Positions 48,389 through 60,329 of a stretch of DNA of 64,000 nt are shown here, piece after piece; positions within the stretch are counted from its first letter, which is position 1; each line of letters starts with the position of its first letter. The notes under the pieces were generated by a model, which had not been told where the DNA came from, made no database searches, and worked only from the letters and a program-made list of their open reading frames with translations. The position numbers and the translations under genes were made by a program. The DNA comes from Pelagibacterales bacterium SAG-MED50 (lineage in GTDB: Bacteria > Pseudomonadota > Alphaproteobacteria > Pelagibacterales > Pelagibacteraceae): contig JACWER010000003.1 of NCBI GenBank assembly GCA_014653385.1, positions 1 to 64,000 of the forward strand, read 5' to 3'.

Positions 48389-49228
48389 TTACAAATATTC
48401 AAGTTCAATCATTTCTTTTTCAAACGCTTTTTCTAACTTAATTTTAATCTTATCATCTAATAACCTTCTCCAATCGTTTCCTGGTCCCAAATTAAAAAAA
48501 GTTTTTCTTTTACCAGTTTTGGAATCTAATACACCCTCGTAAAAAGTTTCATTTTCTTCTAAATTTTTTACTTTTTTAAAATCTGTTGACTTAATAGCTT
48601 TATTTAACTTCACAATATCTAATTGTGATTTCATTCCTAATTGATCAAGAAACTTCAATATTTTAAGCATAATAGTTTTTTTTTTATTTATTAAATCTTC
48701 ATATTTAATTAATAAATAATTGTTTTTAACTTGGAGATTCTTCCAAGATGTATAATTAGAGTTCCATGAGCCCAAGAAAACTCTGCAATTTTTTACTGAC
48801 TTAACTAGAAATTTTGAGTTATCAATCATTGTATCGGCTGCTTCATCTATACTCAAATCATTATGATGAGCCAAAGAATTAACAACATTTCTTGGATCAC
48901 GCACAATATAAATTACTCCAAGGGTATTATTTAAATCTGTAAAATTAGATCCATGCATTTTACATAGCGCGCTATGAGTTTTTAAAAATTTTACTTTTCC
49001 TTTTTCTTGATTGAGAAAATTTTGAACATTTATAAAATTTTTAAATACTTCCTCATCATTATCAATATTTATACCGGCTGACATGAATTGACTTGTTAAT
49101 GGAAATTGAGAAATATGATTTAAATTCTCAAATGAAAAATTGCCATTTTTTGAATAAAAATATGATGATAAGATAGATCTTAAAAGAGTGTTTCCACTTT
49201 TTGGATAGGACGCTAACCAAATAATCAT
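48389..49228 (-). CDS. Sulfotransferase, paralogue 2
   Basis: A 279-residue PAPS-dependent sulfotransferase with ASYPKSGNTLLRS at residues 6-18, YIVRDPRNVVNS around residue 105 and the tail FNLGPGNDWRRLLD. It forms a tandem with paralogue 3 (1-bp overlap); the two share many segments, so tandem duplication is likely. The pair sits between hslU and smr. Acceptor unknown. Confidence 0.9.
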   Translation of the reverse strand: MIIWLASYPKSGNTLLRSILSSYFYSKNGNFSFENLNHISQFPLTSQFMSAGINIDNDEEVFKNFINVQNFLNQEKGKVKFLKTHSALCKMHGSNFTDLNNTLGVIYIVRDPRNVVNSLAHHNDLSIDEAADTMIDNSKFLVKSVKNCRVFLGSWNSNYTSWKNLQVKNNYLLIKYEDLINKKKTIMLKILKFLDQLGMKSQLDIVKLNKAIKSTDFKKVKNLEENETFYEGVLDSKTGKRKTFFNLGPGNDWRRLLDDKIKIKLEKAFEKEMIELEYL

Positions 49229-50082
49229 TATAGATAATGCAATTCTTCCATTTGTTTTTTAAATGAGGTCTCAAGTTTTAGTTTTATTTTTTCATCTAAG
49301 ATTTTTCTCCAATCATTTTGAGGTCCAAGATTAAAAAAGGGGATTTTTTTGCCTGTTGTATTATTTATTCTACTTTCAATAAAACTTTTTTTTTTTTCTA
49401 AATTTCTCATATAATGAAAACTTGTTGTGTCTATTATGTTTTTAATCTTTTTATGGTCTTGATTAAATTTAACTCCTCTTAGCCTATATATAAAGTCCAA
49501 TATTTTTATTAATGTTGACTCTGTATTTTTTAATAAATCTTCATATTTAATTAATAAATATTTTTCAGCTAACTTAAAAGATTTCCAACTATCGTAGTTA
49601 CTGCTCCACGAGCCCAGATAAACTTTGGTTCTATCTGATTCATATTTGCTATTAAGATTACCACCATACTCTATAGAATTAACCATTCTTTCTGAGGCCT
49701 TTTCTACTGAAATATTGAAATGATGAGCATAGGATGTGACTAAATTTCTGGGATCTCTCACAATATAAATTGCTCCCAAAGAATTATTTAGATCTGTAAA
49801 TGGATTATTATTAATATTAAAAAGGTAACTATGTGTTTTTAAAAAAATAATTGAATCTTTTTTATTTATAGATTCTTGTGCTTTAATATAATTCTTAATA
49901 ACTTCTTTTTCATTTTTTATATCTATTCCCAATCTTTGAAAAATAGTAGCACTTGGAAACTGAGAAATATTTCTAATTAAATTAAAGTTAAATAAACCAT
50001 TTTGAGTAAAAAAATATGAAGCAAGTAATGCCCTTATCAGAGTATTTCCACTTTTTGGATATGAAGCTAGCCAAATAATCAT
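49228..50082 (-). CDS. Sulfotransferase, paralogue 3
   Basis: A 284-residue sulfotransferase beginning IIWLASYPKSGNTLIRA, with YIVRDPRNLVTS and the tail FNLGPQNDWRKILD. It is most similar by eye to paralogue 2 immediately downstream. It overlaps the end of the smr gene by 4 bp, which puts it in one transcription unit with tim44-smr. Acceptor unknown. Confidence 0.9.
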   Translation of the reverse strand: MIIWLASYPKSGNTLIRALLASYFFTQNGLFNFNLIRNISQFPSATIFQRLGIDIKNEKEVIKNYIKAQESINKKDSIIFLKTHSYLFNINNNPFTDLNNSLGAIYIVRDPRNLVTSYAHHFNISVEKASERMVNSIEYGGNLNSKYESDRTKVYLGSWSSNYDSWKSFKLAEKYLLIKYEDLLKNTESTLIKILDFIYRLRGVKFNQDHKKIKNIIDTTSFHYMRNLEKKKSFIESRINNTTGKKIPFFNLGPQNDWRKILDEKIKLKLETSFKKQMEELHYL

Positions 50083-54004: not shown

Positions 54005-54588
54005 TGTTGAGTTTTTAAATATTCCTTAATTTTTAAGATAGGTAATCCCATTATAGTATCTTCGTCTCCAGAAATGTTTGAAAATAAATTTCTTCCTTCT
54101 CCTTCAATTTGATAAACATTATAAGCATATAAAGTTTCATCAGATATTTTTGATAAATAAATTTTTAAATCTTCATCTTTGAAATTTTTCATTGTTAGCT
54201 CGGCTTTATCAGTACAATTCCAAATCATTGAGCCATTTTTTGAAATACAGACAGAACTTATTAAAAGATGTTTTTTTCCGTTAAGCTTTTTTAATATTAA
54301 TAAAGCATCTTCCCTGTTTTCAGGTTTTGATATTAATTCATTATCTAAATCTATCACACTATCGGCACCTAAAACTAGTTGATCCTTTTTATTCAAACTA
54401 ACTTTATTGGCTTTTAGTTCAGCTAAATTTTTTGAAATAATCTCTGGTGAAGCTAGTTCTTTGGTAAGGCTTTCTTTTACAATATCTTCATCAACATTTG
54501 ATGGTTTAACTTCACAAAGTAAATTGTGTTTATCTAATATTTCTTTCCTAACTTTACTCTTAGAGGCAAGAACAATTTTATTTGACAT
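54001..54588 (-). CDS. maf: Maf-family nucleotide pyrophosphatase
   Basis: House-cleaning pyrophosphatase. The N-terminal IVLASKSKVRKEIL and the central VLGADSVIDL with catalytic Asp match Maf; the QIEGEGRNLFSNISGDEDTIMGLP block is family-typical (quoted blocks EGRNLFSNISGD and IMGLP). 195 residues. It overlaps the ppsR gene by 11 bp. Confidence 0.93.
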   Translation of the reverse strand: MSNKIVLASKSKVRKEILDKHNLLCEVKPSNVDEDIVKESLTKELASPEIISKNLAELKANKVSLNKKDQLVLGADSVIDLDNELISKPENREDALLILKKLNGKKHLLISSVCISKNGSMIWNCTDKAELTMKNFKDEDLKIYLSKISDETLYAYNVYQIEGEGRNLFSNISGDEDTIMGLPILKIKEYLKTQQ

Positions 54589-55405
54589 TGTTTAAATATA
54601 TTTCATGAATTTTAATTATTGATGCGGCTGTTTCTTCAACTGATTTTCTTGTAACGTCAATTGCTGGCCATTTATATTTTTGGAAAGTTTTTTTTGCTTC
54701 TAAAACTTCTTTTTTAATATTTTCTATATTTATATATTTTATGTTTTCGATCTCTTTTAAAGAATTCATTCTATTTTTCCTTAAGTCGGCTAGACGTTCT
54801 GGCTCTGTGTTTAAACCCACAACACAAGTTAGTTGAGGATTATCTTTAAGTTTTTTTGGTAAAGAATTTTCATTTACCAAGGGTATGTTTGAAGTTTTAA
54901 AGCCCTTGTTTGCAAGATAAATTGAAGTGGGAGTTTTGCTTGTTCGACTGACGCCTACTAATATAATATCTGATTTTTCTATTTCGCTTAATAAGTTTCC
55001 ATCATCATGGCTCATTGTAAATTGAATAGCTTCTATTCTTTCATAATATTCATCATTAAGTGCATGTTGACCACTTGGCAGATGAGATGCCTTTTGATTA
55101 AGAATTTTTGAAAAGTTTAAAATCAAGTTTCCAAGAACACTGAAACAAGGAATTTTTTTTTCATCACTTATATTCGCTAAATATTTAGCTAAGTTATTGT
55201 CTACAATCGTATAAAGAATTACAGAATTTTCATTCTTTTTTGCGTCTTCCAAAATTTTAAAAATTTGATTTTCAGTTCTAGTAAAAGAATAAGAGTGTAT
55301 TTTATAATCAATATTCTTAAATTGGGCCTTTAAAGCTAAAAATATTCTATCTAGTGTCTCACCAGTCGAGTCAGATATAAGATAAATTTGATATGTATTG
55401 TTCAT
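54578..55405 (-). CDS. ppsR: PEP synthase/pyruvate-phosphate dikinase regulatory protein (kinase/pyrophosphorylase)
   Basis: A DUF299 bifunctional ADP-dependent kinase and phosphorylase of 275 residues. The N-terminal YLISDSTGETLDR is diagnostic, and the P-loop GVSRTSKTPTSIYLA is complete. It probably regulates PPDK. In alphaproteobacteria this gene commonly flanks the origin opposite hemE, as here. First gene of the ppsR-maf-aroE-coaE-dnaQ operon. Confidence 0.95.
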   Translation of the reverse strand: MNNTYQIYLISDSTGETLDRIFLALKAQFKNIDYKIHSYSFTRTENQIFKILEDAKKNENSVILYTIVDNNLAKYLANISDEKKIPCFSVLGNLILNFSKILNQKASHLPSGQHALNDEYYERIEAIQFTMSHDDGNLLSEIEKSDIILVGVSRTSKTPTSIYLANKGFKTSNIPLVNENSLPKKLKDNPQLTCVVGLNTEPERLADLRKNRMNSLKEIENIKYINIENIKKEVLEAKKTFQKYKWPAIDVTRKSVEETAASIIKIHEIYLNNVK

Positions 55406-55675
55406 GAATAAATTGTTAATAAATTTGTATTATTTTAATAAAATTACTCAATTGAAATATTGGATAATAATTATTGTAAAATAAGGGTTTTATTAACATT
55501 ATCAAATATATGAATAAAATTATACAATTTATTGAATAAATATTTAAAAAGCTTCAATTTAAACAATTTAATCAATTTATAATTGTTATTAAGTTGTTAA
55601 TAAAATGTTAAAAAATATTTATCATCAATATTCACAATACATAATACTAATACAATAAATATATATTATTTTAAT
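55406..55675. other. Candidate chromosomal replication origin (oriC)
   Basis: A 270-bp gap without an ORF, extremely AT-rich, between divergent ppsR and hemE; this gene pair flanks oriC in several alphaproteobacteria. DnaA-box-like 9-mers (consensus TTATNCACA or its complement): TGTTAATAA at 55414 and 55595, TTATTAACA at 55490, ATATTCACA at 55628, each one mismatch, and a weaker TGTTATTAA at 55584. Genes on the two sides diverge from the gap. The boxes are weak by E. coli standards. Confidence 0.65.
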
Positions 55676-56677
55676 ATGACACCTCTTCACCAAGTAATAA
55701 TAAATAGAAAAACAAAAATAAATCCAATTTGGATAATGAGACAAGCCGGAAGATATTTACCTGAATTTAGAGAAATAAGAAAACTAAATTCAAATTTTAT
55801 AAAGTTGTGTTTAGATGAAAACTTATCATCAGAAATAACTTTACAACCTTTAAAAAGATTTGATTTAGACGCAGCCATAATTTTTTCAGATATATTAATG
55901 TTACCATATGGTTTAAACCAAAAAGTCGAATTTGAAAAAGGTTTTGGCCCTAAACTTGGAAAAGTTAACATTGATGAAATGTCAAAATTAGATGAAATTG
56001 ATTTTGTTGAAAAGATTTATCCAGTATATAAAGCAATTCAAAGAGTAAGCACAAATGAAATAATGAACAACAAAAACACAATAGGATTTGTTGGGGCACC
56101 TTGGACTCTCCTTGTTTATATTATTAATCAACAATCTCCTAAAAAGAATTTAAAAAAAGATTTTTTCAAAAATGATTTTTTAATAAATAGGATCCTTTTA
56201 ATTTTGGAAAAATTTTTAAAAATACATATCAAAAATCAAATTGATAATGGCGCAAATGTAATACAAATATTTGATAGTTGGGCAGGTTTATTAGAAGAGA
56301 AAGATTTGCCAAATTATGTTTATTCACCAACTCTAACTTTGGTTAATTATGTTAAATCTTTAAATATTCCTGTAATCTGTTTCCCTAGAGAAATTAAAAA
56401 TTATAAAGAATTTTGTGATATTGTTAAACCAGATGCAGTAAGCATTGATTATAGTGTGGACCCAAAAAAAATCTTAAATGATATAAAAATTCCAATTCAA
56501 GGTGGTCTTGATCCCAAAATACTTCTTTCAGACAAAGAAACCTTGAAAAAAGAAACATTGAAATACTTAGATATTTTTAAAGATCATCCTTATATTTTTA
56601 ATTTAGGGCATGGAGTTTTGCCTGAAACAGATCCCAATATGTTCGAATATTTAGTGAACACAGTAAAAAATTATTAA
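55676..56677 (+). CDS. hemE: Uroporphyrinogen decarboxylase
   Basis: Decarboxylates uroporphyrinogen III to coproporphyrinogen III. IWIMRQAGRYLPEFR near residue 20 is the N-terminal signature with the active-site arginines, and GFVGAPWTLL is present. Length 333. First gene right of the candidate origin, 1-bp overlap with hemH. Confidence 0.97.
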   Translation: MTPLHQVIINRKTKINPIWIMRQAGRYLPEFREIRKLNSNFIKLCLDENLSSEITLQPLKRFDLDAAIIFSDILMLPYGLNQKVEFEKGFGPKLGKVNIDEMSKLDEIDFVEKIYPVYKAIQRVSTNEIMNNKNTIGFVGAPWTLLVYIINQQSPKKNLKKDFFKNDFLINRILLILEKFLKIHIKNQIDNGANVIQIFDSWAGLLEEKDLPNYVYSPTLTLVNYVKSLNIPVICFPREIKNYKEFCDIVKPDAVSIDYSVDPKKILNDIKIPIQGGLDPKILLSDKETLKKETLKYLDIFKDHPYIFNLGHGVLPETDPNMFEYLVNTVKNY

Positions 56678-59486: not shown

Positions 59487-60329
59487 CTACAGGTATTTCA
59501 ATTCTCTCATTTCGTCGTAGAAATTTTTTTCTATTTTATTTTTAGCATTCTCATTAATATTATTTTTCCAATTGTTTGCTGGTCCAAGATGAAAAAAATT
59601 AACTTTGCTATCATCTTTTTTGTTTAATACATTTTCTTTAAATAAACCTTTTTGTTCCATTTTTTTTAAATTTTCAAAAGATGTTGTTTCTAAAATTTTT
59701 TTGTTTTTGCTATCATCTGTTTTTATATCAAGATATTTTTTTAAAAAGTAAATGATCTTTTTAAATTCATTTTCTGGATTCTGAATTAAATCTTCATACT
59801 TTATTAATAAAAGATTATTTTTATTTCTTGTCCATGAACGATAGTGATCACTCCATTTACCCAGCAAACACTGCATGCCTGTTTCTTTATCTTCCCATTT
59901 TTTAGTATTTCCAATAATTTGAGGAGTTGTTAAAAAATCACATGCCCCATCAATAGATAAAGTATAATGATTTGATATTGAAGTGATTAATGTTCTGGGA
60001 TCTCTCACTATGTATATTGTTGCAAGTGTATTTTGATTATTAGTAAAACTGTTTTTATCAACAGTATATTTGCCTTGATGAGTTTTGAGAATTTTGATCT
60101 GATTATCTAAATTAATCTTATCTTGTGCTAATATCCAGCTTTCTTTTATTTCATTAAAATTTCCAAAATCATTAACAAAATCTTTAAAATATTTTTTTTC
60201 TGGAAATTGGCTTACTTTTAACATTAATTCAAAATTAAAATTTCCATCGTTAGAATATAATAAAGATGAAACCATTGATCTAACCCAAGTGTTTCCACTT
60301 TTTGGATAAGACGCTAACCAAATAATCAT
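59487..60329 (-). CDS. Sulfotransferase, paralogue 4
   Basis: A 280-residue sulfotransferase: ASYPKSGNTWVRS (residues 6-18), YIVRDPRTLITS and tail FHLGPANNWKN. It is the only minus-strand gene between the candidate origin and the window end. It lies between rho and mnmE, which are otherwise neighbours in many alphaproteobacteria. No repeat or att site is evident at its ends. Acceptor unknown. Confidence 0.9.
   Translation of the reverse strand: MIIWLASYPKSGNTWVRSMVSSLLYSNDGNFNFELMLKVSQFPEKKYFKDFVNDFGNFNEIKESWILAQDKINLDNQIKILKTHQGKYTVDKNSFTNNQNTLATIYIVRDPRTLITSISNHYTLSIDGACDFLTTPQIIGNTKKWEDKETGMQCLLGKWSDHYRSWTRNKNNLLLIKYEDLIQNPENEFKKIIYFLKKYLDIKTDDSKNKKILETTSFENLKKMEQKGLFKENVLNKKDDSKVNFFHLGPANNWKNNINENAKNKIEKNFYDEMRELKYL

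Follow-up and report, generated by a model that had tools for sequence, protein, structure and literature searches.

The slow-growing SAR11 bacteria rank among the most abundant cells of the ocean. A short gap between two divergent genes raised the question of where replication of their chromosome begins. The gap lies in the window, by which we mean the whole 64-kb stretch of DNA analysed here, the start of contig C23 (113,730 bases) from a genome of 54 contigs that is 86% complete. A first-pass annotation had named the gap a candidate oriC, and this proposal proved well supported by synteny, by conservation of DnaA boxes and by a skew and strand switch in closed relatives. Judged from sequence, chromosome replication in this SAR11 (Pelagibacteraceae) lineage very probably starts in the ppsR-hemE gap. 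The observations behind this reading are its position, its conservation, its anatomy of boxes and trio, and the skew switch in relatives.

The flanking genes, identified with Pfam and NCBIfam models, are those that the first-pass annotation had named. They diverge on both sides, so that the gap sits between hemE and a COG1806/DUF299 gene, the classical alphaproteobacterial context:

54578 to 55405, minus strand: ppsR (kinase-PPPase, COG1806/DUF299 type), left flank; PF03618 at 4.9e-88, NF003742 above cut-off
55406 to 55675, no strand assigned: putative oriC, the ppsR-hemE intergenic gap; 270 bp, 88% AT; placed by synteny and the two-arm skew switch
55676 to 56677, plus strand: hemE, right flank; PF01208 at 7e-85, TIGR01464 above cut-off

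In the window maf and aroE come next on the ppsR side, and hemE is followed by hemH, a small membrane-protein-like ORF, rho, a sulfotransferase gene on the other strand and mnmE. By the AT profile of the window the gap is more AT-rich than the genome average. The same locus holds the experimentally shown Caulobacter origin (Cori) and the proposed Rickettsia oriC, which the SAR11 gap resembles in its flanking genes, AT-richness and several DnaA boxes (PMC1914354). With 250-289 bp it is shorter than the 383-404 bp tabulated there for Caulobacter and for the four Rickettsia entries, and its boxes are mostly TTATTAACA, TTATTCACA or TTATAAACA, whereas those of other alphaproteobacterial hemE/COG1806 gaps are mostly TTATCCACA. 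The location is classical for Alphaproteobacteria and the details are a lineage variant. Two sulfotransferase paralogues with 41% identity, at 49228-50082 (minus strand) and 59487-60329 (minus strand), lie about 4-5 kb to either side of the origin.

A description of a SAR11 oriC was not found in the open-licence literature searched. A figure legend in PMC4033161 calls the oriC of HTCC1062 'manually identified' and gives no place for it there, and PMC2099444 has HTCC1062 in a table and mentions genomes with possibly unequal arms. An earlier database prediction at the ppsR-hemE locus (e.g. in DoriC) is possible. The probable origin dissected here for the Pelagibacteraceae has a box consensus that is relaxed and a trio that is degenerate.

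The window's gap contains five putative DnaA box positions:

55414 to 55422, minus strand: Box1, TTATTAACA; ranks first in conservation among the 9-mers of the gap (31 representatives, exact register), with a recognisable copy in 28 of them
55490 to 55498, plus strand: Box2, TTATTAACA; conserved column block; recognisable in 27 of 30 genus genomes and 1 of 18 gaps of other genera
55595 to 55603, minus strand: Box3, TTATTAACA here, most often ATATTCACA in close relatives; conserved columns
55606 to 55614, minus strand: Box4 position, in the window TTTTTAACA, which differs from TTATTAACA by one base; 56 of the 124 gaps have TTATAAACA; conserved columns
55628 to 55636, plus strand: Box5, beside the predicted unwinding element, ATATTCACA in the window and TTATTCACA in 80 of the 124 gaps; ranks second in conservation among the 9-mers (exact register), with a recognisable copy in 19 of the 31 representatives

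The three copies of TTATTAACA and the single ATATTCACA, each one mismatch from TTATNCACA, are the four 9-mers of the first-pass annotation, and all were found where it had placed them. Box4, a position missing from that annotation, is slightly decayed in the window's genome. A further one-mismatch site that it did not mention, TTATTCATA at 55509-55517 (minus strand), is poorly conserved. The gap has five sites with at most one mismatch from TTATNCACA, where 3000 dinucleotide shuffles average 0.96 (P = 0.0013), and three exact matches to TTATNNACA versus 0.41 expected (P = 0.0064). It is the densest spot for such 9-mers in the 64 kb: all 17 segments of 270 bp (10-bp steps) with four or five one-mismatch sites start at 55341-55501. 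From this single genome the box cluster is significant, not overwhelming, and the comparative evidence decides. Exact TTATNCACA is absent from the gap and from the whole window (3.9 expected), and no avoidance of the four TTATNCACA words was found in 1.2 Mb of relatives. Since the window has no TTATNCACA, a search for this exact word would miss the origin.

We compared 135 hemE loci (30 including the window's own, 80 named GTDB loci, five and 20). In 125 of them ppsR is divergent from hemE, always across a gap of 250-289 bp, and 124 of these gaps are unique. The ten remaining loci are three contig ends (L129, L144, L171), six loci of a sister family (f2) and one odd locus (L226). On average each of these 124 holds 3.33 copies of TTATNNACA, compared with 0.33 in dinucleotide shuffles, and three gaps have no copy. 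Positions 5-6 of the boxes read TA in 207 of the 413 matches, which makes TTATTAACA the commonest form, followed by TC (90), AA (75), CA (13), AC (6) and CC (4). At position 6, T is below chance (10 versus about 17) and G is rare (6 versus about 2). The predicted family box consensus is TTATTMACA.

An alignment of 31 representative gaps, less than 70% identical to each other, bore out the conservation of the 9-mers that had been proposed as a check of the candidate. In exact register no other 9-mer of the gap is as well conserved as Box1 and Box5, and not one of 20000 random sets of five windows attained the column identity seen for the five boxes. Recognisable boxes were counted in these representatives 28 times for Box1, 16 for Box2, 14 for Box3, 15 for Box4 and 19 for Box5. 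For the 18 gaps of other genera the corresponding counts were 17, 1, 8, 10 and 7. The five-box map is mainly genus-level, and outside the genus Box1 alone is firm (17/18).

To the right of Box5 the highly conserved columns show a period of three, with a 4-nt spacer followed by NTA triplets. This opening element was overlooked in the first-pass annotation:

55637 to 55640, plus strand: 4-nt spacer ATAC; poorly conserved, pairwise column identity 0.36
55641 to 55652, plus strand: DnaA-trio-like repeat ATA ATA CTA ATA (3'-NAT-5' on the other strand); in-frame NTA
55637 to 55677, no strand assigned: predicted DNA unwinding element (DUE); the 40 bp of lowest stability in the gap, ranked fourth of the separate minima in the window

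The stability scan was a calculation with nearest-neighbour energy parameters, and it puts the start of the least stable 40 bp of the gap at 55637-55638. When placed by the alignment, the four triplets of the 31 representatives read NTA in frame 2.97 times on average. The two other frames gave 0.13 and 0.42, and shuffles 0.67, the highest of 2000 shuffled means being 1.26. A pattern search recovered Box5 in 104 of 125 gaps and missed it in 21. The last 60 bp at the hemE end contain three NTA in a row in 21/31 gaps (6.7 expected) and in 93/124 gaps; on the other strand at the ppsR end such a run is present in 10/31. In family f2, (CTA)3-4 stands at the place of the trio in three of six loci and CTAATACTA in a fourth, and the run count gives 4/6 loci against 2.0 expected. 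Among 39 other alphaproteobacterial loci it gives 12 against 7.8 expected. By this crude count the trio signal is weak outside the Pelagibacteraceae.

A DnaA box, a spacer and a DnaA-trio in this order make up the basal unwinding system (BUS) described for Bacillus and Helicobacter. The orientation of a box as 5'-TTATNCACA-3' towards the trio is presumably that of the BUS, an assumption that we take partly from the layout of E. coli oriC. The window has Box5, a spacer of 4 nt and four NTA triplets at 55641-55652, of which one is an exact CTA, or on the other strand 3'-GAT-5', the triplet expected to be commonest in a BUS. The BUS rule asks for a box, a spacer of 0-16 and a.A. triplet three or more times (PMC8287927, PMC8235120). 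As in Bacillus subtilis and Helicobacter pylori, the box is followed by a short spacer, by triplets with a conserved middle A on the other strand (the T in NTA) and by AT-rich DNA (PMC8287927, PMC8235120). Unlike in Bacillus and Helicobacter, the triplets of the Pelagibacteraceae are degenerate (ATA/TTA/CTA/CAA). In f2 the (CTA)3-4 of three of the six loci comes a few nt after CACAGG or AACAGG, and the adjoining box itself is poor.

By analogy with Bacillus and Helicobacter, DnaA would bind the five box positions in the form TTATTMACA. From Box5, which points to hemE, DnaA-ATP would then extend onto a single strand of the NTA repeat and open the very AT-rich 40 bp just before hemE. The helicase would be loaded there, and replication would proceed in both directions.

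At the scale of the genome we sampled five of the seven single-contig genomes of the genus, with 20 evenly spaced 20-kb samples each. The gap ranked first of 20 positions for an equal-arm split, by GC skew and by gene strand, in all five genomes, which have a common gene order and are therefore not independent. When unequal arms were allowed, the best boundary was the gap or one sample beside it; in three of the five, at least one of the two measures put it a sample away, about 5% of the genome. The skew is mostly gene orientation, and fourfold sites showed no clear strand effect in three genomes. The check by GC skew that had been proposed for the candidate was thus borne out in the closed relatives under equal arms, but not on C23 itself, where the cumulative minimum is at 86.5 kb and only a local dip is seen near 55 kb. 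As an origin pointer the skew of this contig was set aside as uninformative; its local swings track gene blocks.

The dnaA gene of the window's genome is on a different contig from hemE, and in closed relatives the two are 60-63 kb apart. An origin at another place, such as dnaA (some 62 kb to the right in closed relatives) or the stretch between hemE and dnaA, could draw on the split one sample to the right, which is nearly as good in G035 and G043 and better in G003 with unequal arms. However, four of the five genomes already show a plus bias in the sample that lies 20-46 kb to the right of hemE (plus fraction 0.61-0.77; 0.49 in G003), and three boxes within 270 bp were found at none of 30 dnaA loci (up to 1.5 kb of flank; L043 without its upstream side). 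In closed G035, which has 94 TTATTMACA in total, the sole triple within 270 bp is at the gap. Looser triples within 270 bp occur elsewhere, for TTATWMACA in one G043 sample and for TTATNNACA in one G035 sample (400 kb each), and no genome-wide enrichment or avoidance of TTATTAACA was found. We give next to no credence to an origin elsewhere. It is highly improbable, too, that the gap is merely the divergent ppsR/hemE promoter region, with the 9-mers as -35/-10 or operator sites and TTCACA-N17-AATAAA/TATAAT right of Box5 as the hemE promoter. Transcription of hemE has to start somewhere, and TTCACA-N17-TATAAT can be read across Box5 in L007 and L011. Yet promoter-like matches number 7 where chance predicts 7.2, conservation is lower in the -10-like columns than in the trio (0.49 versus 0.63), and the genome-scale strand switch falls at the gap.

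Natural losses of the flanking genes also speak against promoter parts alone. In genus g9 (four genomes, L370-L373) hemE and the genes up to rho are absent from the locus, yet in all four a Box1 of the form TTATAAACA still comes after ppsR, and another TTATAAACA stands near +175. L370 and L372 have an exact TTATAAACA at the place of Box5, a 4-nt spacer and CTA ATA; L373 has GTATAAACA there with the same spacer and CTA ATA, and L371 is further diverged. In family f2 (L220-L225) ppsR is not beside hemE and maf adjoins the gap in the four loci read, yet boxes and triplets are kept beside hemE. Because they outlive hemE in g9 and ppsR in f2, boxes and triplets are not just promoter parts. A different reading accepts the origin but takes TTATTAACA as the site of another conserved regulator, with the TTATTCACA copies alone as DnaA boxes. 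It would fit the 124 gaps in that Box1 and Box2 nearly always have A at position 6 (A6) and Box5 mostly C (C6). Against it, the two forms swap at the same aligned positions: among recognisable copies C6 occurs in 7/116 of Box1 and 5/104 of Box2, and A6 in 15/109 of Box5. Of the 19 recognisable Box5 copies in distant representatives, 10 are A6 and 8 are C6, and Box5 is TTATAAACA in two of the four g9 loci. We therefore consider a separate regulator very unlikely and keep to TTATTAACA as a putative DnaA box.

Several hemE loci showed irregularities of their own. Elsewhere in the genomes of L370-L373 (G022, G031, G009 and G066) we found just a 30% URO-D match in G009, G022 and G031, and one of 34% in G066; a loss or replacement of haem synthesis steps in genus g9 is possible. 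At L226 (G066:C2) a hemE of 34% identity has coaE- and dnaQ-like ORFs next to it as well as boxes and CTACTACAACTA, and ppsR is on a different contig; this contig could have strayed from another organism (3% contamination). A hemE that is split or has internal stops was seen at G131:C5:73516-74509 and G040:C1:358209-359182, which suggests sequencing error or decay.

The first-pass annotation had also suggested that DnaA of this lineage may prefer TGTTAATAA. The support for this is partial: it is the commonest box, but Box5 is TTATTCACA in most gaps and genome-wide enrichment is missing. In the whole gap set, which is dominated by close relatives, A6 makes up 105/116 recognisable copies of Box1, 99/104 of Box2 and 87/101 of Box4, and C6 makes up 66/97 of Box3 and 92/109 of Box5. 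C6 at Box5 as a trait of the whole family was rejected: it holds in 74/76 copies of the named GTDB loci, in 17/26 of the 30 genus genomes and in 1/7 of the 18 gaps of other genera, where A6 is found in 6/7 recognisable copies. Box3 as a C6 box is similarly limited (54/71 in the named loci, 5/18 in the 30 genus genomes). Outside the family, C prevails at position 6: among 40 alphaproteobacterial loci, the 25 gaps with ppsR have 25 boxes with C, mostly TTATCCACA, 8 with A, 4 with T and 1 with G. The A6 forms there come chiefly from the three gaps richest in AT (6 A, 5 C).

We also compared the DnaA proteins. Across 30 proteins of the family and 18 others, no change was seen in the contact residues, which we take to be R399, R407, Q408, L422, P423, D433, H434, T435 and T436. 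The turn that precedes the recognition helix reads GG-RDHTT in 22 of 29 other alphaproteobacterial DnaA (34 taken, five not parsed), whereas in the family it has S/A/C/T and then N/G in 42/42. Its first residue is never G in these 42; it is G in 26 of the 29 others, and the other three lack a residue. A rule linking a non-G at position 431 to A6 boxes was dropped, since family genera with G431 also have A6 boxes. In gaps of at least 70% AT the A:C counts at position 6 are 80:23 for the 40 genomes that lack G431 and 16:9 for the 10 that have it, a comparison confounded by AT content and kinship. The family-specific change of the turn may affect box recognition, with AT content as a confounder. 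The majority A at position 6 is probably a family-wide relaxed consensus, driven by AT composition and tolerated by DnaA; perhaps DnaA helps rather than just tolerates A6 boxes. A bolder reading combines changed box recognition with a two-class code, in which the A6 boxes (Box1, Box2 and Box4) would fill late and C6 at Box5 (and Box3 in close relatives) would anchor unwinding, set for slow, once-per-cycle initiation in a streamlined cell. The C6 form of Box5 and Box3 is not kept across the family, so we judge this code less probable and, with changed recognition included, unlikely.

A defined origin would allow ori-to-ter coverage in metagenomes to be read as replication rate, and it fixes a point for rotating and comparing SAR11 genomes. 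The natural losses of hemE or ppsR beside a kept box-trio core make the minimal origin of the group directly testable.

Other origin motifs gave no clear signal of CtrA or IHF enrichment in the 31 representative gaps. CtrA sites (TTAA-N7-TTAA) occur in 10/31 gaps, at 0.39 per gap versus 0.26 in shuffles, and the IHF site WATCAA-N4-TTR in 5/31. GANTC, the CcrM site, is found twice in 33.6 kb of gaps (124 unique), compared with about 39-40 by mononucleotide shuffle, and seven comparable patterns reach 0.22-1.9 of expectation. An N6/N4 methylase gave one match in each of six genomes; the one fragment tested fits the CcrM model best, below the full-length cut-off.

The 9-mer TTATTAACA is also the putative DnaA box in oriC of Mycoplasma hominis, M. 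mobile and M. arthritidis (PMC2751442). These genomes are AT-rich too, but the bacteria are unrelated, and their boxes lie upstream of dnaA in one or two copies (PMC2751442). The shared form suggests convergence of mycoplasmas and SAR11 under AT pressure.
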